From Onthophagus taurus (Eukaryota; Arthropoda; Insecta; Coleoptera; Scarabaeidae): a stretch of 64,000 nucleotides of DNA. Both the position numbers and the translations under genes were made by a program. The stretch's first letter is position 1, and each line of letters begins with the position of its first letter. Of this stretch, positions 36,744 to 51,054 are shown in pieces. The stretch lies in assembly GCF_036711975.1 (NCBI RefSeq), contig NC_091971.1, positions 10,299,501-10,363,500 on the forward strand, given 5' to 3'. Under the pieces are notes generated by a model. The model searched no databases, was not told the origin of the DNA, and saw only the letters and a list, made by a program, of their open reading frames with translations.

Positions 36744-39390
36744 TTACTTCTTAGCGGGAGCGGCCTTCTTCTTCGTCGCCGTCTTCTTGGGTTTACCCTG
36801 TTTGGCCTTCATTATCAACTCTCTTCGCCTTTTTTGAAGTGCAGCCGACTTGATAACTACGTTATCCGGACTCAAAGTGATACCCCGTTTTTTCGCAACT
36901 GCTTCTTGTCTAGCAAACTTCCTTTTTTGTTCAGACAAAATTGCTTGTCTCTTCAATACAGCAGCATATGGATTCAAACGTAACATTGCCCTAGCGTTGG
37001 TGAGAGGATTGAGACGACGCACAGCGCGAACAATCTTCTTTCTAAAAATTTAAATAAAAAAGATAAGTAATTTTAAGACAAAACAATTTCTATAAAAATT
37101 AAGTTGGAGTTTTAAACGAATCAGAATTTGGTTTTAACAACACAGTTATTTCAGAACCCAATGCTCTGAATAAAAAGGTTTCATCACTTAACAATATAAA
37201 TGAAAATATTTGATTAAAAAATTACGAAATACGTACTGTGGTGCACGAAGTACACTCTTAATTTCTTCAGCTTTCAACAAACGAGATAAATCAGTGTTGG
37301 CCATTTTGGGTTGGGGCAAATTGTAACCTTTCTTTTCAACAGAAGAGTTTTTCCAAGTTCCAAACAATTTGTCCAAACGTTGGAAAGCAGATTCGGTCCA
37401 GATTATAAAACGACCTACGTGACCGCCAGGGGCCAATTTAAGCAAATTCAATTTTTCAACGCTAATTAAATCAATTCCAGGGATGTTACGGAAAGCGCGA
37501 CGAAGACCTTGGTCTTTATGGTAAACAATGAGGGGGCCTTTACGTTGGATACGTCTCCTATTACGCATTTTACCCTTTCCAGCGCGGAATCTTTGCGATT
37601 TATAAACCTATAATTAAAAAAAATATATTTTTTGCTGTTTAAAATAAAATGAGGGTTAAAATGATGTTTTATTATTCTTCAGTAGTTTTGATTTATAAAA
37701 TCATTAAAACTCATAAACACGGACCAAAACTAATTCATCATTTAACTTAACCTCATTTTTCTTATTTTTGGACCTTAAATTACCTTTTGGATATCTGCCC
37801 AGGCTTTAACACGTCTCAAAAAGATAACCGCTTGTTTGGTCTTAGTTAATTCTTGAACTTTATCAGAAACAACGAGGGGCAACTCTGGAATCTGATCAAT
37901 AACATGTCCTTTGCTCATTACAAGGGCTGGGACTCCGCTGGCTGCTACAGCCGAAGCGAGGGCATAACGACGTTGGTTGATATTAACACGTCTATGCCAG
38001 CGACGCCATGGTTTCGTTGGGGCGAACATTCGTCCACCACGACACATATTACCGAAAGCACCCTGACCGGAGCGATGGGTACCTCCACCACGGACACGCG
38101 GAATACGGGCGACAGCGCGACCAGTACCCCATGATTCAGCAGAAGTTTGATGACCTAAAAGAGTTTGTTTTAATACAAATTGATTTATGGATTAGAATTA
38201 AGAAAATATAAATTGAATTAATCAGAATTTGTATTTAACAACATGGTGTGTTCAGAACCCAATGCTCTGAATAAAAAGGGTAACATCACTTAAATCTTGT
38301 AATTCCTATTTTGACAGCTGACAATTAAAACATAACCTTAAAATTCAAAATGTCAAATTTAAGAACATCAATAAAGTAAAAATGTTAATAATATCAATAA
38401 ATAAATAAAAATATAATAAAAACAACATGGTATGTTTCTCTGAATGAAAAAATATACTATTCTATAATTTTTTTTGAGATTCTCCTCTTAATAAGTGACA
38501 ATTAAAACATAACCTCAAAATTTGAAATGTCACATTTCAGAACATCAATAAAGTAAAAATGTTAATAATATCAATAAATAAATAGAAATATAATAAAACC
38601 AACATGGTATGTTTCTCTGAATAAAAAAATATACTATTCGATAATTTTTTTTGAGATTTTCCTTTTAATAAATGACAATTACAACATAACCTCAAAATTT
38701 GAAATGTCAAATTTAAGAACAACAATAAAATAAAAATATAATCAATAAATAAATAAGGATATAATAAAAAACACTAAAAATAAATTTTATTCAACATCTT
38801 TATAATTTTACTAATATTATTTAAAGATTTTTGTGTTTTTTACCTGCTTTATCACTGACACAATATGCTTGGCGATGATTGAAGGAAATTTGTTCGTGAA
38901 CGAAATTCACGACATCAGGCCTAATTGGGGCCTTGAAGACGGCCGGCAAACGAACAGACTTGCCTTTAACCTCTTCAGACTTTTCGCTGTAGATACTAAC
39001 CAAAGGGCGTGCCGTTGATAACGACTATAAAAATAATAAAAAAAATCTTTTAGTCCCCATCCAAAAAGAGTTAACTCAAAGTATTGTTTAAGAATAAGTA
39101 ATCAGTGCTTTTGTAGGGTGAAGTCATTAAAACTCATAAACACGGACCAAAAGCTGTACCTCATCATTTATAACTCAACTAATCTTAAAAAAGGATGTAA
39201 AAATTAAATAAAATTGAAGAAAACCTTTTATCTCACAACATGGATGAAAATATGGTTAGAACACACGTGGCCGGTGTATTTTTTGATTTATTTGGCAATA
39301 ATTAGGGAATATGTTTTAATTTTTTATTGTCCCCGTGTTGGCTGAAACTTATTTAAATAAAATAAACAGTATTTGAAATAAACTTACCAT
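36744..39390 (-). CDS. RpL4: Ribosomal protein L4 (uL4), five coding exons
   Basis: Coding exons are 39390-39388 (only the ATG), 39024-38844, 38154-37784, 37607-37237 and 37041-36744. They close in frame to 407 residues. uL4 is a large-subunit protein whose internal loop lines the nascent-chain tunnel. That loop is visible as [20 protein letters not shown] and [20 protein letters not shown] Lys-rich C-terminal tail ([14 protein letters not shown]) is typical of animals. Splicing directly after the initiator ATG is common in ribosomal protein genes. A pyrimidine run CTTCCTTTTG near 39465-39456 may be the 5' TOP start. Each intron holds a box C/D snoRNA candidate. Confidence 0.97.
37117..37191 (-). 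ncRNA. Box C/D snoRNA in RpL4 intron 4 (28S guide)
   Basis: On the gene strand: box C GTGATGA (37187-37181), box D CTGA (37124-37121) and internal D' CTGA (37154-37151). The guide before D' (TTCAGAGCATTGGG) is complementary, with one G-U pair, to the conserved 28S segment CCCAGTGCTCTGAA (recalled from memory). A related copy lies in intron 2. It probably directs 2'-O-methylation of 28S rRNA. Confidence 0.72.
37675..37746 (-). ncRNA. U18: U18-like box C/D snoRNA in RpL4 intron 3
   Basis: Box C ATGATGA (37741-37735) and box D CTGA (37682-37679) bracket the guide TTTTGGTCCGTGTTTATGA. Vertebrate U18 carries the same guide core (TTGGTCCGTGTTT before its D' box), pairs with 28S AAACACGGACCAA and also resides in RPL4 introns. 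The D' box reads ATGA rather than CTGA. Confidence 0.85.
38218..38293 (-). ncRNA. Box C/D snoRNA in RpL4 intron 2 (paralogue of the intron 4 copy)
   Basis: Box C GTGATGT (38289-38283, one change from consensus), D' CTGA (38255-38252) and box D CTGA (38225-38222). It shares the guide TTCAGAGCATTGGGTT and the segment GTTGTTAAA with the intron 4 snoRNA, so the two are recent duplicates. Confidence 0.68.
38300..38770. repeat. Tandem ~180-bp repeat inside RpL4 intron 2
   Basis: About 2.5 head-to-tail units share GACAATTAAAACATAACCT, CATCAATAAAGTAAAAATG and CAACATGGTATGTTTCTCTG. The last string matches the snoRNA just upstream (ACATGGTGTGTTC, CTCTGAATAAAAA) with its guide region removed. The repeats therefore look like amplified snoRNA-region debris that lost the guide. 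Confidence 0.7.
39098..39172 (-). ncRNA. U18: U18-like box C/D snoRNA in RpL4 intron 1
   Basis: Box C ATGATGA (39167-39161), guide TTTTGGTCCGTGTTTATGA and box D CTGA (39105-39102). Guide and D' box are identical to the intron 3 copy, while the rest has diverged, which suggests selection on the guide. Confidence 0.85.
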
Positions 39391-41563: not shown

Positions 41564-41982
41564 TTTGTACGAATGGATATAAGAAAATGACAAGAAATTG
41601 CCATGAGTAAAGAGTAAGGGTGCTTAAATAGTAAGGTAAAGCAGAGGAAGGTATGTAATTATTGGTCTTTTAAAGCGTTGTGTAAAGTGTAAAGAGTATT
41701 TAAAGGAGGTTTAAAAGTTGTTAGGAGTTCTTTTAAAAGTTTTGTTTTGAGTTTTATTGAAAGAAATTATACGGTCTGGAAAATTAGATGTTTAACAAAT
41801 TAGTTGGTCTATACTCGACTTTTTCCCTTACTTATGATTATTTTAGATGATTCTTGATTATTTGGTTTTATTAAGTACTTATATTATCAAGATAGATATG
41901 TCGATTATTAATATAAATGAGGATTTCAAGTAATTTTGGTAATAAAGATCTGGAATTTTGAGTTAATGCACTCAAAAATAAG

Positions 41983-42054
41983 TCCCAGATAGTATAGTGG
42001 TCAGTATCCCCGCCTGTCACGCGGGAGACCGGGGTTCGATTCCCCGTCTGGGAG
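41983..42054 (+). tRNA. tRNA-Asp (GTC), copy 1
   Basis: The 72-nt cloverleaf closes: acceptor TCCCAGA/TCTGGGA, anticodon stem CCCGC/GCGGG around CTGTCAC (anticodon GTC at 42016-42018), T arm CGGGG-TTCGATT-CCCCG. No intron. A T-run follows for polymerase III termination. It differs from the other two copies at one D-loop base (C). Confidence 0.97.
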
Positions 42055-42950
42055 ATTTTTTTGTAACGTTGAAACAATTATAAGAAAATCAAAATTTTTG
42101 AAAGTAATAATAATAAGAAATATAACACAATTTTAGGAGTTTATCATCCTAAAGGAGTTTTATAGGCAGAAAAGACATCGCGCGGTTTCTGCCCATTTCC
42201 AGTAAATAACATCATCTTTTGTATGTCACGTAATTAAAAGCGCAAGTAGGATTAAAGTTAGAATCATAAATATCCATATAGCGTCTTACCGAAATTGTAG
42301 TCTTGGATCAAAAAGGTAAACTTCAAAACCGTGACCTCTGAGATCAGCTCATTTCCAAAACAGGCATTCCCATTATTCTTCAATTGTAGTCACATATTTG
42401 GACTCAACTTTTTATTGAAATATATCCAAACTTGAAAAATGTCTAAAATATGAGATTTATTTGAAATATTTCAAAGACAACTTTATCTATAAATTAAGCA
42501 GGCAAAAGTTAAATGTAAAAATCAAATCTAATGAAATACCAAAAAGGGTAGCAATGGCGAAACTACTGATGCATAAAAGAAAGGTCAAAAAGTTTTATAA
42601 CAAAATTGCAGATATAACAGTAATCTTTACAGAGAGATAACGTGATGACTATCGTGTTTGATTATATACAGAACTTGTCTTTTATGCCAGTGCTGGAAAT
42701 ATTTTATCTTAAAAAATGATGGTATTATGTTTCCAGTATTTATGATGTAGGCCGTGGAAACTTCACCTTCTATACATGAGATCCCACAAGTTATAACTTA
42801 CCATGCTACAACAAAATAGATCATACTAGACTTTCCAAGTATGACAAGTTAAGTTTATAACCAGAAATGTTTTGTTATTATTTCAACGTTCTTTCATTAA
42901 GAAGTTTCACAATAACTTTGTCAAGGTTGATTGGTAAAGGAACATTCCAT
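42055..42950. other. Spacer after tRNA-Asp copy 1, no gene
   Basis: AT-rich DNA with many stops in all frames. Its relation to the retroelement remnants that follow is unclear. Confidence 0.4.
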
Positions 42951-43039
42951 GACTTTCAAAAATTCATAACTAATTAATGCGTTCGTGTATCAATTTGAAA
43001 TTTTGAGAAAAAGTTGTTTTCATTGAGGTATATAATAAT

Positions 43040-44250
43040 GGCTAATGGTAATACAGCTATACTTCTAAATATTTATTTCCATATTTTTTTTAATTTTTGA
43101 GTCTAGCTCTAACCATGGGCATTGAAAGCCAGAAGACTAAAGGTGACTACAATAAAATGTAGAGGAAGAAGTAAAAAAATGAGTATTAATTTTGTCTGTA
43201 AGTCTGTGAAGTGATGTTAGAATTCTCTGAATCGACAACCTAGCATGCACAACCTACTCAGTCATTGCTTAGTCGTTATGGACTTTTCTCACACTAATTC
43301 TTAAGCTACTGCTAAAAAATGTAGTTTCCTGCTATCTGTTGGAATTCTTCCCAAAACTTTTGTATAGAATGTAATTGTTTGTCAGATTAATAGTTTAAGA
43401 CTATAAAGTAGCACTAAAATCACCTTTTCAAATCTCCCAGGAGAACCGATAACAGCTCTTGCGTTTTGTTTAGCCTTTTATCTCTGCCACCGCTTTATCC
43501 ATGTTATATCGATTGTATCTTTTATTTTCACTACATTTATGCGTCATCAGCATCTTGTCATCTATAATAGTTACACTAACTCCGAAAAGAAAACTTGATT
43601 AAATTACTTATCCTTTCCTTTTAGTCTGTATCTTATAAACTCATTACCTTCACACAGCTTAAGAGTTATTCGACGTGATATTGGATTTGTTGTTGCCGTT
43701 GTCGCTCATTGTCGGCTCAATTATCAAATCTCAATCAATTGCCATTTCAACGTCTTCCTCGGTATACTGGTTTCCAGTCTATACTCCTGGATCTTTTCAA
43801 CATTTCGATATCTAAATATACATATGTATTTATTGACAACCTGAAACATTAAGACTATCTGCTCAAAAATAAGTTTCAGATAGTATAAAATACTATATTT
43901 TACCCTATACTTCGCTTTAGCTTGTATACGGGCCAGAGCGATAGGAATAGTAGAAAATGGAGCACGTGAATTGGGCCTGGAGCTGAATTATAAGAAATGT
44001 GGTCCGCTTGATGTATGAATGAAAACTCAAGAGCAGCTCGATGAAGATTATAGACCACAAATTCGTAAAGCATACAAGTATTTGGGTATCCACCAGATAG
44101 AAAGAGACTCGCAAAATAACTACGGACTACTAACATCAAAAATTATAGAAAAAGCAGCACAAATAATGAACTCAGGCCTAAACGCATCCCAAAAGATAAA
44201 ATTGTTCAACACAGTGGTGGTAGCCGCTCCATTTTCTACTATTCCTATCT
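43040..44250. mobile_element. Retroelement remnants of the tRNA-Asp unit, copy 1
   Basis: 43040-43850 is largely duplicated at 48945-49660 (for example GAGTCTAGCTCTAACCATGG). From 43930 the plus strand reads RIVENGARELGLELNYKKCG, then KAYKYLGIHQIERDSQ and SGLNASQKIKLFNTVV. This resembles the thumb of an R2/Dong-type LINE reverse transcriptase, truncated. Just before it, 43874-43887 copies the first 14 bases of tRNA-Asp. Confidence 0.55.
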
Positions 44251-44251
44251 A

Positions 44252-45472
44252 CAGTATGTCCCCGGATCGAGTTACAAAGAGGAAAAAAATTTTTGTTACT
44301 GATTTTTCAAACTTATCTCAACATAAATAATGCGTCGGATATGTTCAAACCACTAAATCGCACGAACTTTATATTCTAACTATAGAAGTTAACTAATTAT
44401 TCCCATTTCTATGTAAAAATTATATAGAAACCAATAAAATAAAATAAAAGTTACAACTTATGTTAGTGAAAAATATACGGACAAATCAAATTAAAATATG
44501 GCTAATTGAATCAAATATTTCAAATGTAAATTTATGTAAAAACACACTATGTAAGTAATAAATATTATTTATTTGTAAGTGAACAAATCCTCATTCAAAC
44601 AAATTCCCTCCCAATTCGGCACACATTTGAAGACGAGTTCTAAATTCTTTATAAGAAGTACGAATTTCCGCCAGTGGTAGAGATTCTATCGCTTTAATTA
44701 TTCTTAGTTTTAATAGTTCTGCATCATCTTGTAATGGTTCACTGTAAACAATTTGTTTCAATCGTCCCCAAAAATAAAAATCCATAATTGTAAGATCACG
44801 ACTACGTGCTGGCCATCAAATAGGACCATTTCGTTCAATCCATTTTTGACGAAATTGTAATTTTAACCATTTGGCACAATGTGTGAATGGTAAGCTGGGC
44901 AACTGTCTTGCTGAAAGTACATTGACCGTATAAAATTTAAGGGTAATTGGATTTACATCGCTCCAATAACGACAATGCTGGGAAGAAACAATGTCATTTG
45001 TTGAAAAGCTATCTGAAAAGCAGCGTCTTCCTCGTTTAGTCTCTTTGTCTGCCTTTTTATGGATAATACAGAACCCGTTTCCAAAATTTTTTTCATTTTG
45101 TGTCCGGATATTTTTGTTGGAATTTTTGTATAACTACACGAAACCATGATTCCCTAGTACCATAGCACAGTACTAAATAAATTCTCTCTTTCACGGTTAA
45201 CATCGCATGACAAGACTTAATCTCACCAACATAAGTTGTAACTTTTATGGTTTCTATGGTTACATATCATAAATTGAACTTGAAAAATTTTCAATTTAGA
45301 AAAATTTTTACATAAAAATTTGAATAATTAGTTCACTTTTATAGTTAGAGTATAAAATTCATGCGATTTAGTAGTTTGAACATATCCGATGCATTATTTA
45401 TGCTGAGATAAGTTCGAAAAATCAGTAACAAAAATTTTTTTTCTCTTTGTAACTCGATCCGGGGACATACTG
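44252..45472 (-). mobile_element. Tc1/mariner-like transposon with internally deleted transposase
   Basis: TA at 44250-44251 and 45473-45474 flanks inverted ends CAGTATGTCCCCGGATCGAG with arms of about 160 bp. The minus strand encodes a decayed transposase from about 45203 to 44591: MLTVKERIYLVLCYGTRESW (N-terminal helix-turn-helix region), MYFQQDSCPAYH (second catalytic Asp) and LTIMDFYFWGRLKQIVYSEP (third catalytic region). The segment with the first catalytic Asp is missing and there are frameshifts and stops. At 1,221 bp it is a non-autonomous relic, inserted in the LINE remnant. Confidence 0.85.
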
Positions 45473-45699
45473 TATATATAGGATAGATATATCTATATCT
45501 CGTATACAAGCCAGAGCGAAGTATAGTGGTCTATACTCCACTTTTTAACTATAATTATTTTAGATGTTTCTTGGTCATTTGATTCTATTAAGTACTTATA
45601 TTATCAAGATAGCTATGTCGATTATTAATACAAATGAGGATTTCAAGTATTTTTGGTAATAAAGATCTGGAATTTTGAGTTAATGCACTCAAAAATAAG

Positions 45700-45771
45700 T
45701 CCCAGATAGTATAGTGGTGAGTATCCCCGCCTGTCACGCGGGAGACCGGGGTTCGATTCCCCGTCTGGGAG
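45700..45771 (+). tRNA. tRNA-Asp (GTC), copy 2
   Basis: Identical to copy 1 except G at the variable D-loop position. Anticodon GTC at 45733-45735. The 5' flank back to about 45528 is highly similar to that of copy 1, and the 3' flank to that of copy 3. Confidence 0.97.
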
Positions 45772-46219
45772 AATTTTTTTACATTTTAAAATTTAAGATA
45801 TAATTAAATTATTATTTTTAATTGATTGATTAATTAATCTTGTTAGTTACAGCCTAAATGTTTGATATAATCATGATTAACACGTTAACGACCAGTCCTA
45901 AATTTTGTAAATTTACGTCTGGACCGGAGTAGTTTTTTGTTGAATGCTAGCACAAGGAAGTACAATAATATTTTTTCTTTGGACAATAACTTGTTTGGAA
46001 AGAGTTTTCAATAAAAAAAACATGTGCACCAAATTGGTACACGCAGTCTGATTAAAAAGAAATATATGTTAAGTTTACCATAGACCATGTGTACCATAGT
46101 GGGTCTCGACCAAAATCATTTATTCTACATTTTAGTTAAAAATAAAACAACATATTCCATTATGAATGTAAAATAACATTTTCAGTATACAAAAAAATAT
46201 AAATACGTAACATTATTAT

Positions 46220-48007
46220 TTAATTAACGAACGAAGTATGGCGCTCAAAAAAACAACTTACACACATATACGTCGCATTTTCAGAGCATGCACGGCAAAA
46301 AGAATAAACTTTTTTGGCATTTTTCATCGCCGAATGACGCCCTTCTCTTTCTGAGTACTTTTTATAGCAAGCTGAACACCTGCCCCGAGTTTTTTTATTT
46401 TCTATAGAGTGTTGCACTTGATTTTCAGTTTTGGGTTGGTTTTCCACAGCCAATAAGGCACAAACGATATTTTCGCGAAATTCTGTGATACTCATGTTCT
46501 TTCCAGTTACTTCTTTGAACACGACCATGGCATTAACTAGAACAGTGTTTGTCAATAGTTCAACTACAATTTTCCGGTACCATTTGATCCCTCGGCGTAC
46601 TGGAGAACTATAGGAAGCTTTTTGATCTGAAATATCAATAAAGCCTTTAGCTGTATTATATTCCACTATGGTTGATGGTTTTAGAACAGAGCCTCTTTTC
46701 GTTGGAACTTCAACCATTTCTGGGACAGCTCTCGTTGTCAGAAATAGAACATCGCGCTTATCTTTCCATTTTGCTACTACAACTTTTGTGTTGCTTTGTT
46801 GCATCTTTATTTCGCCCTTTTTCAATTTGGCACTTGTGACTGCCTTCGGATTAAGTTTTCGGTTTTGACGCAAAGTACCAACCAAATGTGTTTGGTTATC
46901 ATTCAGTTCATGTGCTAGACCAACACTTGTATAGAAGTTGTCAGTATAAAGGGTTCTTCCCGTATTGAGAAGAGGTTCCATCAGTTCCATGACTACTCTT
47001 GTAGCCAATGGCTTATCAGAGGTTTTTATACCACCACCACCGCCATATATTTTAACTGAATAAGTATAGCCTCCATCAACACAAAGTTTAAAAAGTTTGA
47101 CACCGTACTTGTGTCTTTTGCCTGGAATGTACTGGAGGAAGCTTAACCTGCCCCGAAATGGAACCATTGTCTCATCGATGCATATCTTGTCCTTTGGATT
47201 GCAAAGATGTTGAAATTTTCTATTTAACATCTGTACAAGTGGAGAAATCTTATATAATCTGTCACCTGATGGGCAATTTTCATTATCAGAAATGTGTAGG
47301 AAATGTAACAATGCCTCAAATCGATTTCTACTCATGCGACCCAACTTTGCAACTTCGCTTTTATAAAGGACCTTTTTACTCCAATAATCTCGAAGCGTAG
47401 GTTTTTGATCAAGTCCCATCCAAATAATAATGCCAAAAAAACGCATAAGTTCATGTGCATCTGTATCATACCACTTAGACACAATGGAGTGTTCACTGAC
47501 TGTCTCTTCACATATACCATTTAGTATCTGTTGTTCGGCGTATCTGTTTGTTTCCGTAACTAGTAAATCTTGAACTTCTTTGTCGAAAAATAAGAGGAAA
47601 AAATCAACAGGGTTTTGGTGATTGATTTTTTCTTGTCGAAATCCGGGTCTTCCAGAATATACAAATTTATTGAGTTTATCAGATACACAAACTTCACTCC
47701 ACACTACATAATTACTTCTTGGAGCAACAACAGAATCGTCACTTGAATCTTTTCCAGGTGAATTAGGCCTATTACTAGGCCCAGGTGTAGGTTCTATTTT
47801 TCTTTTTTTACTTGGCAAAATAATGTCATTACTAGTTGTACTAGACTCAGAGTTCGAACCTTCGTCTACTTTGAATGTGCGGTCTGCATCTGAATCATCG
47901 TATGTGCTTTCGATTTCACTACATTCAAAGTCGCTCTCTTCCAATATTCGTCGAAGTTCTTCATCAGATAGTTCTTTGCGCGTCATATTTCTATTATACA
48001 GATACAC
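46220..48007 (-). CDS. piggyBac-family transposase
   Basis: This 595-residue, single-exon frame is typical of piggyBac transposases. An acidic N-terminus (about 1-100) precedes the DDD catalytic core, with the expected contexts IDETMVPFRGR, TLYTDNFYTSVG and KGFIDISDQKASYSS carrying the three Asp residues. A C-terminal cysteine-rich domain (CSACYKKYSEREGRHS, then CRACSENATYMCVSC) is the zinc-binding cross-brace that recognises the ends. No stop or frameshift interrupts it. Translation could also begin at the Met at 47986 (MTRKELSDEE). With intact ends and TTAA copies, the element could be active or recently so. Confidence 0.95.
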   Translation of the reverse strand: MYLYNRNMTRKELSDEELRRILEESDFECSEIESTYDDSDADRTFKVDEGSNSESSTTSNDIILPSKKRKIEPTPGPSNRPNSPGKDSSDDSVVAPRSNYVVWSEVCVSDKLNKFVYSGRPGFRQEKINHQNPVDFFLLFFDKEVQDLLVTETNRYAEQQILNGICEETVSEHSIVSKWYDTDAHELMRFFGIIIWMGLDQKPTLRDYWSKKVLYKSEVAKLGRMSRNRFEALLHFLHISDNENCPSGDRLYKISPLVQMLNRKFQHLCNPKDKICIDETMVPFRGRLSFLQYIPGKRHKYGVKLFKLCVDGGYTYSVKIYGGGGGIKTSDKPLATRVVMELMEPLLNTGRTLYTDNFYTSVGLAHELNDNQTHLVGTLRQNRKLNPKAVTSAKLKKGEIKMQQSNTKVVVAKWKDKRDVLFLTTRAVPEMVEVPTKRGSVLKPSTIVEYNTAKGFIDISDQKASYSSPVRRGIKWYRKIVVELLTNTVLVNAMVVFKEVTGKNMSITEFRENIVCALLAVENQPKTENQVQHSIENKKTRGRCSACYKKYSEREGRHSAMKNAKKVYSFCRACSENATYMCVSCFFERHTSFVN

Positions 48008-48238
48008 ACAACCAAAACACTTAATAAATCACATATAATCACTATAGAAGAAAGCAGTACAGTAGCCTACAACAACAATAAAATGAATTCTAACCTAAAA
48101 TTTGACGTTTGTTGTTGACGGCACATTTGCAGATTTGACTGCATTTGACGTTAAAAATTCAATGACCAATTCAATAATATTCCATTCTTATAAAATTATA
48201 TTAAACTTATTAAATTAACAATAATGACTTTTTATAGT

Positions 48239-48334
48239 TTTTTTCAAATAAAACAGGCTTCAACACTATTTTTTATCCTCTAAAAGCATAAGGAGGATAA
48301 AAAATAGTGTTGAATCCTGTTTTATTTGAAAAAA
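48239..48334. repeat. Long hairpin inside the piggyBac element
   Basis: 48239-48280 and 48293-48334 are inverted copies with one mismatch, separated by a 12-bp loop. The arms include CAAATAAAACAGG and CACTATTTTTTATCCTC. They lie in the 5' untranslated part between the transposase start and the right terminus. Confidence 0.85.
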
Positions 48335-48689
48335 TTATAAAATTACGAGGATTATCCTCATTATCAAGGTATTATAAGAAGAATAATGCCTTTTTTTAAA
48401 CGCTGTAATAAATAAAAAAACCACAAATGATTTTTCCAACCCAAGGCTATCTTGTATTTCCCAGGTACCAGATCTACCAAACACCGTATAATTAAACACT
48501 ATAGCTGCGTCCCTGTTAGGCCCACACGAGTTGAAACATTACATTTTCCTGTGTCCAAATAGGGTCACGCGGTCTCCCCAGAAATCAGAGTGCGCACCAA
48601 TATGGTGCACATGGTCGTTAACGTGTTAAATTAAGTATAATTTCCAGATAGTATCATTCTAAAACTTTATCACTGTGTTAGTGTGTGCC

Positions 48690-48962
48690 AGACTGGACGT
48701 CGCGCCTTTATTTCTTTAGAAGGAGATATTTGTTTATCCCGTTAAACTTATTATATTTATTGAAACTGTCTAATTGTAAGATCGAAACCAAAGCAGTTTC
48801 AGGGACCGAAATTATTATGTCATCAACATACTTCTTTAAAAAAGGCACTTCAAAGTTTATCGTAGGTAAAATTTTGTTTAACACATGATCCTTCACGATT
48901 TGAGCCATAATGGGAGAAATCGGAACACCCATGGGTGTACCAAAAATATTTATTTCCATATT
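48690..48962 (-). mobile_element. Penelope-like reverse transcriptase fragment, copy 1
   Basis: The minus strand reads FGTPMGVPISPIMAQIVKD followed by VPFLKKYVDDIIISVPETA. This is the reverse transcriptase block with the YVDD catalytic pair in the arrangement of Penelope-like elements. Only about 85 residues remain. A near-identical copy lies at 50393-50645. Confidence 0.7.
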
Positions 48963-49990
48963 TTTTTTAATTTTTGAGTCTAGCTCTAACCATGGGCATT
49001 GAAAGCCAGAAGACTAAAGGTGACTACAATAAAATATATAGAGGAAGAAGTAAAAAAATGAGTATTAATTTTGTCTGTAAGTCTGTGAAGTGATCTTAGA
49101 CATCATTGCAAAATTGATCACTGTGCTTCACCTTCTCTGAATCGACAACCTAGCATGCACAACGACACCTACTCAGTCGTTGCTTAGTCATTATGGACTT
49201 GAGCCATGTTTTCTCACACTAATTCTTAAGCTACAGCTAAAAAATGTAGTTTCCTGCGATCTGTTGGAATTCTTCCGAAAAGTTTTGTATAGAATGTAAT
49301 TGTTTGTCAGATTAATACTTTAAGACTATAAAGTAACACTAAAATCACCTTTTCAAATCTCCCAGGAGAACCGATAACAGCTCTTGCGTTTTGGTTAGCT
49401 TTTTATCTCTGCCACCGTTTTATCCTTTCCTTTTAGTCCGTATCTTATAAACTCATTACCTTCACACAGCTTAACAGTTATTCCACGTGATATTGGATTT
49501 GTTGTTGCCGTCGTCGCTCATTGTCGGTGTTGGGTTCGTTTCTCAATCTATCATCAAAGCAATTGCCATTTCAACGTCTTCCTCTGTATACGGGTTTGCA
49601 GTCTATACTCCTGGATCTTTTCACCATTTCGATATCTAAATATACATATGTATTTATTGACAACCTGGAACTGTAAGACTATCTGCTCAAAAATAAGTCC
49701 CAAATCGTATAAAATACTATATTTTACACCATATTTCGTATACAAGCCAGAGCGATAAGAATAGTAGAAAATGGAGCGGCTGAATTGAGCCTGGAGCTGA
49801 ATTATAACAAATGTGGTATACTTGATACATGAATGAAAACTCAAGAGCAGGTCGATGAAGATCATAGACCACAAATTCGTAAAGCATACAAGTATTTGGG
49901 TATTCACCAGATAGAAAGAGACTAGCAAGATAACTACGGACTACTAACGCCAAAAATTATAGATAAAGCCGCACAAATAATGAACTCAGG
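48963..49990. mobile_element. Retroelement remnants of the tRNA-Asp unit, copy 2
   Basis: Parallels 43040-44220: the same GAGTCTAGCTCTAACCATGG block, the same piece of tRNA-Asp 5' sequence (49698-49711) followed by AAATACTATATTTTAC, and the same decayed LINE-like reading (ELNYNKCG, KAYKYLGIHQIERD). It ends near 49990 in an unrelated 80-bp stretch before tRNA copy 3. Confidence 0.55.
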
Positions 49991-50156
49991 CTATTTTCTT
50001 GGAGCATAGCTTCCACGACTGGTTTTCGCTTAACCTATATTGAACTAGTATTTCCTATAGCTATTGCTCTTTTGTCGATTATTAATACAAATGAGGATTT
50101 CAAGTAATTTTGGTAATAAAGATCTGGAATTTTGAGTTAATGCACTCAAAAATAAG

Positions 50157-50228
50157 TCCCAGATAGTATAGTGGTAAGTATCCCCGCCTGTCACGCGGGA
50201 GACCGGGGTTCGATTCCCCGTCTGGGAG
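50157..50228 (+). tRNA. tRNA-Asp (GTC), copy 3
   Basis: Identical to copies 1 and 2 except A at the variable D-loop position. Anticodon GTC at 50190-50192. The similar 5' flank begins at about 50071 (GTCGATTATTAATAC). Confidence 0.97.
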
Positions 50229-50392
50229 AATTTTTTTACATTTTAAAATTTAAGATATAATTAAATTATTATTTTTAATGGATTGATTAATTAATCTTGT
50301 TAGTTACAGCGTAAATGTTTGATATAATCATGATTAAATTAAGTATAATTTCCAGATAGTATCATTCTAAAACATTATCACTGTGTTAGTGT

Positions 50393-50645
50393 GTGCCAGA
50401 CTGGACGTCGCGCCTTTATTTCTTTAGACGGAGATATTTGTTTATCCCGTTAAACTTATTATATTTATTGAAACTGTCTAATTGTAAGATCGAAACCAAA
50501 GCAGTTTCAGGGACCGAAGTTATTATGTCATCAACATACTTCTTTAAAAAAGGCACTTCAAAGTTTATCGTAGGTAAAATTTTGTTTAACACATGATCCA
50601 TCACGATTTGAGCCAGAATGGGAGAAATCAGAGAACCCATGGGTG
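50393..50645 (-). mobile_element. Penelope-like reverse transcriptase fragment, copy 2
   Basis: MGSLISPILAQIVMDHVLNK and FLKKYVDDIITSVPE on the minus strand, almost identical to 48690-48962. Similarity to that unit stops shortly after 50665. Confidence 0.7.
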
Positions 50646-51054
50646 TACCAAAAATATTTATTTCTTTATGTACACACTCATCTTAGTGAGGGGCCTTCAT
50701 TTGTGGCACGTGTAGTAGTTATAGTTGTAAATGTTCAAAAACGTTTTCTTTCCAACTTGCTAAAATAATAGGAATTGGTAATTAGGCAAACTTATTTCTA
50801 CCATTCGAAATTTAGAGGTTGCAACAAAAAGTATTAAATATTATATTAATAATAAAATATAGAGTAATTAAAAAATTATTTATCAACTTTTTCATTATTT
50901 AAAATGTTTTGTTCAATTTAAAACTTTTTGATGAAAATACTTAATTTTGTACTGCATTTCATTGCAATCGATCTAAAACTCAAACGAAACTTTTTCAAAC
51001 ATACGTTCCACATTCGTTTAAAAAATTTAATCCATCCATGCGAGTATAAAAGCT

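Follow-up and report, generated by a model that had tools for sequence, protein, structure and literature searches.

Introduction

The closest described counterpart of the locus reported here is RPL4 of the chicken, for which the table of a snoRNA survey (PMC2653536) records two families, U16 (introns 1 and 3) and U18 (introns 2, 5 and 6). A first-pass annotation of the DNA studied here had stated that U18 in RPL4 introns is shared with vertebrates, and as far as the chicken is concerned this table bears it out. The same table lists U40/U46 in introns 2 and 3 of RPS8, assigns 28S A3249 to U40/U46 (snR63) and A3274 to U15, and the authors of the survey explain nearly all paralogs in the chicken by intragenic duplication (PMC2653536). 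More widely, passages of PMC3511168 list the U18 family for human, yeast and plant and describe a drift of snoRNA positions between host genes of broad expression. As to placement, C/D snoRNAs are stated to prefer sites about 50 nt upstream of the branch point (in a passage of PMC8162545), and animal hosts mostly to carry one snoRNA per intron (in a passage of PMC11028025). Here we describe an insect RpL4 gene with a predicted guide in every intron, in which the partner family of U18 differs from that of the chicken.

Results

RpL4 and its four predicted intronic box C/D snoRNAs

The window, that is, the whole 64-kb stretch of Onthophagus taurus DNA that was analysed, contains an RpL4 gene (Table 1) whose five exons, joined at GT-AG sites, encode an intact protein. 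Drosophila L4 is the best solved match of this protein, with residues 1–399 aligned to residues 1–400. The introns are 363, 689, 176 and 195 nt long in order, and each holds one predicted sense-strand box C/D snoRNA, which is U18 in the first and third introns and a member of a second family, here called family B, in the second and fourth. Exons 3 and 4 are equal in length, at 371 nt, and the protein is without internal similarity.

Table 1. Features of the RpL4 locus, in positions of the 64-kb window.
Feature	Position	Strand	Remarks
RpL4 host gene, ATG to stop	36744..39390	minus	splice sites, 407 aa; Drosophila L4 match
RpL4 exons	exon 1 ends 39388; then 39024-38844 / 38154-37784 / 37607-37237 / 37041-36744	minus	
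RpL4 introns 1-4	39387-39025, 38843-38155, 37783-37608, 37236-37042	minus	
U18 copy (predicted), intron 1, C box to D box	39102..39167	minus	D' box ATGA, D'-guide TTTTGGTCCGTGTTT
Family B C/D snoRNA (predicted), intron 2, C to D box	38222..38289	minus	C box GTGATGT, D'-guide TATTCAGAGCATTGGG
U18 copy (predicted), intron 3, C to D box	37679..37741	minus	relaxed Rfam plus box/guide scan
Family B C/D snoRNA (predicted), intron 4, C to D box	37121..37187	minus	C box GTGATGA
177-nt tandem units of intron 2	38297..38827	minus	second and third units 89% and 62% identical to reference unit
Decayed B copy 1, in 177-nt tandem unit of intron 2	38421..38450	minus	guide core and D' deleted, C/D boxes lost
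Decayed B copy 2, in next tandem unit of intron 2	38598..38627	minus	same deletion
U18 flanks, intron 1, able to form a long interrupted external stem	39043..39206; arms about 39170-39206, 39043-39079	minus	-19.9 kcal/mol
U18 flanks, intron 3, able to form an external stem	37639..37765; arms about 37745-37765, 37639-37661	minus	-13.3 kcal/mol

The loci were found by a purpose-written scan for a C box (RTGATGA or RTGATGT), a D box (CTGA) and a guide of at least 11 bp, with at most 2 G-U pairs, ending no more than 2 nt from a D or D' box. Both strands of the whole 64 kb were compared with the readable rRNA, which comprised 490 nt of 18S and 4,110 nt of the 5.8S-to-28S region; snoRNAs for other parts of the rRNA escape such a scan. 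Its 10 matches represent four loci, one per RpL4 intron and all in the sense orientation, and at these thresholds there was no further C/D locus on either strand of the 64 kb. The arrangement proposed in the first-pass annotation, a box C/D snoRNA in each RpL4 intron with two families in ABAB order, thus emerged again from the scan. All four candidates have the C box RUGAUGA and the D box CUGA tens of nucleotides apart on the sense strand, with one mismatch in the C box of the intron-2 B copy, and the guides directly upstream of the D' box span 15 bp in U18 and 16–17 bp in B.

When boxes and register were required, the best guide scores were 14, 14, 13 and 13, and none of 20 one-strand Markov shuffles, the best of which scored 11, reached them. 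With the boxes ignored, complementarity alone (12 and 12.5) was not above that of shuffles (12 to 13, the best of 12 per intron), and intron 2 has a stronger rRNA pairing (13.5) away from its snoRNA. Because guide pairing by itself does no better than shuffles, the case rests on boxes, register and repetition together.

Covariance models gave a divided answer. At gathering thresholds, Rfam found only three tRNA genes and no snoRNA in the 64-kb window. At a relaxed threshold, SNORD18 matched in intron 1 with 36.4 bits (gathering 41) and snoU18 in intron 3 with 41.9 bits (gathering 47); these copies miss the curated cut-off, which is a score convention and not a structural feature. Exact matches of the guide plus D' box lie in these two introns as well. 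The Infernal-type check that the first-pass annotation had suggested for the introns placed U18 at a relaxed threshold, with scores below gathering, and gave no convincing family for B. The best Rfam matches of the B copies, to snosnR61, reached 24.7 and 23.5 bits against a gathering threshold of 45 and came mostly from the boxes. The snoZ6 model, nearest by guide letters, some of which it has in common with B, gave 17.1 bits (gathering 35), and Rfam listed no SNORD46 match for the B copies at the relaxed threshold. Since Rfam yielded no sequence match of B to U40/U46/snR63, we do not file B in that family.

Two other parts of the window were noted in passing. Intron 1 has G+C-rich patches, CACCGGCCACGTGTG and ACACGGGGACAATA, in 39215-39345. 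This G+C-richer interval was considered as an extra snoRNA and rejected: its Rfam matches were weak and all on the opposite strand, and its fold was no better than that of shuffles (138 of 200 at least as good). Beyond the gene, three tRNA genes that are nearly identical (starting points 41983, 45700 and 50157; anticodon GTC, Asp, assigned by eye) sit in 41801-50664, a patchwork of segmental duplications that are 88–98% identical.

Predicted targets of the guides in 28S rRNA

The U18 guide pairs with 28S AAACACGGACCAAGG, with a duplex energy of -22.1 kcal/mol, and is directed, as expected of U18/SNORD18, to 28S ACACGGACCAA; the genome contains the target string GAAACACGGACCAAGGAG 10 times without mismatch. 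The D' guide of family B pairs with 28S of the same genome at GCCCAGTGCTCTGAATG, over 17 bp with 3 G-U pairs or 16 bp with 2, with an energy of -28.8 kcal/mol. Its target string CCCAGTGCTCTGAA, which the first-pass annotation had correctly named as the 28S partner of the second family, occurs at five places in the genome, four in 28S and one in unrelated sequence.

By the D+5 rule, the methylated residue pairs with the fifth base from the D or D' box. The rule points U18 to the A in 28S GAAAC[A]CGG. Counted from D', the fifth base of the family B guide is paired with the C that precedes the A of CCC[A]GTG, so that the predicted methylation site would lie one base off the classical A if D+5 holds strictly. 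The yeast sites Am2256, Am2280, Am2281 and Gm2288 fit a register in which the classical site is the A of CCCAGTG. By position arithmetic, the 25 nt that separate A3249 from the U15 site of the chicken also fit the A of CCCAGTG in 28S here (PMC2653536).

Each of the four 28S copies with the B target is interrupted a short way downstream of it, close to the conserved site TATGACTCTCTTAAGG, and the junctions differ from copy to copy. R2-type elements insert at TATGACTCTCTTAAGG.

Copies elsewhere in the genome and the RpS8 locus

Genome searches covered the readable stretches of the 290.8-Mb assembly and give lower bounds. They found at least two exact matches of the U18 guide plus D' pattern YTTGGTCCGTGTTTNTGA and at least two matches of the family B pattern, in both cases located in RpL4. 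With the SNORD18 model, the RpL4 copies ranked first (36.4 and 33 bits) and the third match had 25 bits (60 of 46,769 preliminary candidates scored); this third match is probably noise, because 10 of 14 control genomes also match at the same loose E-value. A U46-like guide pattern, AGAGCRYTGGG followed by 1–2 nt and CTGA, was present at four places, including the two B copies; that search is blind to other spacings and to boxes other than CTGA. We rejected the remaining two places, judged by eye to be an enzyme-like coding exon and a reverse-transcriptase-like reading frame. The snoZ6 model had no match in the genome, but since it missed the B copies too, this result is uninformative.

The RpS8 locus of this genome was recognized first by a family match and then, by eye, from its reading frame. 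Under box rules laxer than those of the 64-kb scan, its introns contain C/D-like sequences, with 77, 70 and about 70 nt between their ends and the 3' splice sites. The guide of one pairs with 28S over 13 bp, that of another is weaker (12 bp with 2 G-U pairs), and the third sequence was picked by eye. The RpS8 locus lacks any 9-base stretch of the perfect B guide. The 13-bp D guide (AGTCATAGTTACT) targets 28S close to the TATGACTCTCTTAAGG insertion region.

Position in the introns and possible flanking stems

From the end of the D box to the 3' splice site, the distances are 77, 67, 71 and 79 nt in introns 1 to 4, and they cluster despite an about fourfold range in intron length. Under uniform placement, four positions within a 12-nt range have a chance of about 5e-4. 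A site 67–79 nt before the 3' splice site is the usual place for C/D processing. Pairing of the flanks was strongest around the intron-1 U18 copy (0 of 300 shuffles as low), followed by the intron-3 U18 copy (1.7% of 300 shuffles as low) and, more weakly, the intron-4 B copy (2.3% of 300). For the intron-2 B copy, the flank stem was not above shuffles (39% of 300 as low).

Divergence, duplication and decay of the copies

The two U18 copies are identical at 51 of 66 aligned positions and the two B copies at 58 of 68. In each family the guide plus D' core is unchanged (19/19 and 22/22, respectively), and the rest agrees at 32/47 and 36/46 positions. Both ends of the local homology between the B copies lie no more than 5 nt from the C and D boxes. 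Between the U18 copies, homology begins some 13 nt ahead of the C box and does not reach the D box.

Family B was duplicated in tandem inside intron 2, and the additional copies decayed there. Both remnants have one common 11-nt deletion that took the guide core and the D' box, and both have lost the C and D boxes. From their ends to the splice site we estimate 244 and 421 nt, which is one and two 177-nt units more than for the live copy. Only 2 to 25 of 1000 shuffles match B as well as the remnant fragments do; a possible third remnant in intron 2 was not above shuffles (246 and 460 of 1000 as good). The intron-2 repeat has five matches in the genome, three in intron 2 and two weak ones elsewhere.

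We consider it very likely that RpL4 is a multi-snoRNA host in which U18 and B, as predicted guides, go back to old intragenic duplication, with later decay of the tandem B copies. A possible though doubtful alternative is that the copies moved between introns by retroposition, as snoRNA retrogenes, and not by duplication at the DNA level. A retroposed unit could give the sharp homology ends of both pairs, and mobility of snoRNAs within genomes is reported in a passage of PMC3511168; however, old DNA duplication followed by decay of the flanks gives the same picture. Moreover, retroposition should scatter copies, whereas neither family was found outside RpL4 in the genome searches, and the one duplication with preserved flanks, directly visible in intron 2, is a tandem duplication of DNA.

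It is unlikely, in our judgement, that each family has a single active guide while the remaining copies are decaying pseudogenes that persist by chance. The intron-2 B copy could be seen in this light, given its GTGATGT C box, its weak flank pairing and the two dead B copies already held by the same intron, but all four copies keep the guide, the D' box, the D box and the position relative to the splice site. Far less probable still is an origin that the first-pass annotation had suggested, a duplication of one intron-exon-intron block containing U18 and B that made the ABAB order in a single step. That order and the similar divergence of both pairs outside their cores would suit such an event, but the RpL4 protein, searched for an internal repeat, has none and is collinear with Drosophila L4 over its full length, and no flank similarity extends beyond the snoRNAs; with no protein repeat and with intron homology ending at the snoRNAs, block duplication is not supported. 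That the four loci are chance C/D-like sequence in A+T-rich introns is hardly credible. Pairing scores no higher than those of shuffles would fit it, but shuffles fail to match the real scores once boxes and register are required, and the two genome copies found per family all lie in RpL4.

Discussion

The four-snoRNA arrangement of this RpL4 gene is real, well supported by sequence and ordinary in kind, with guide activity as a prediction. In the model that we favor, old intragenic duplication with later decay, the RpL4 pre-mRNA would carry one box C/D guide per intron, 67–79 nt before the 3' splice site. As in known C/D biogenesis, the snoRNP would assemble during splicing, and debranching and trimming would release the snoRNA. 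The U18 copies, whose pairing is seen directly, would direct 2'-O-methylation to the conserved A of 28S GAAAC[A]CGGACC. The B copies would use their D' guide on 28S UGCCCAGUGCUCUGAAUG, a stretch served by U40/U46 in vertebrates and snR63 in yeast, and by strict D+5 would direct methylation to the C that adjoins the classical A on its 5' side. Selection may have kept boxes and guides after the duplication while the flanks diverged.

Intron 2 amounts to a small natural experiment, with a B copy that looks live at 67 nt before the splice site and dead ones farther away, at about 244 and 421 nt. These live and dead positions fit the position rule reported for vertebrates, and distance to the splice site may have caused the decay of the tandem copies. 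A broader proposal, that in this insect lineage a D' snoRNA in RpL4 replaced the guide for the U40/U46 stretch and shifted methylation from A to C, that RpL4 and RpS8 swapped guides, and that splice-site distance sets copy survival, strikes us as improbable.

Literature searches on RpL4 snoRNAs and on Me28S-A2564, a Drosophila snoRNA, did not find the arrangement reported for insects in the portions of text that they returned; it may still be published. The main text of a preprint on Drosophila S2 cells (PMC13228274) makes no mention of RpL4 or U18.

Among known systems, the U18 copies are closest to U18/SNORD18 (RF00093, RF01159), with which they agree in box layout, guide core GGTCCGTGTTT and 28S target. 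The RPL4 host is the same as in the chicken table (PMC2653536); the differences are scores just below gathering and two copies found here compared with three in that table. Family B is aimed at the same 28S stretch as U40/U46/snR63, as judged by position arithmetic from the chicken table (PMC2653536), but it is hosted by RpL4 and not by RPS8, and its antisense element precedes D', whereas that of U40/U46 is listed before D (3'). U40/U46/snR63 aim at the A of CCC[A]GUG, and B, by strict D+5, would aim at the neighbouring C. A different partner and host for B fits the drift of snoRNAs among hosts described in PMC3511168.

The association of RPL4 with U18 thus looks old or repeatedly favored, while the second resident changes: the partner of U18 in chicken RPL4, U16, targets 18S, whereas the partner found here targets 28S. 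By analogy with the chicken gene, an interleaved snoRNA pair in RPL4 is already known in kind, and because U16 and U18 are interleaved there (PMC2653536), the ABAB alternation is less surprising than the first-pass annotation had held. What is new is the presence in RpL4 of family B, for a 28S stretch served from RPS8 in the chicken, together with its one-base difference in predicted register and the decayed tandem B copies of intron 2.
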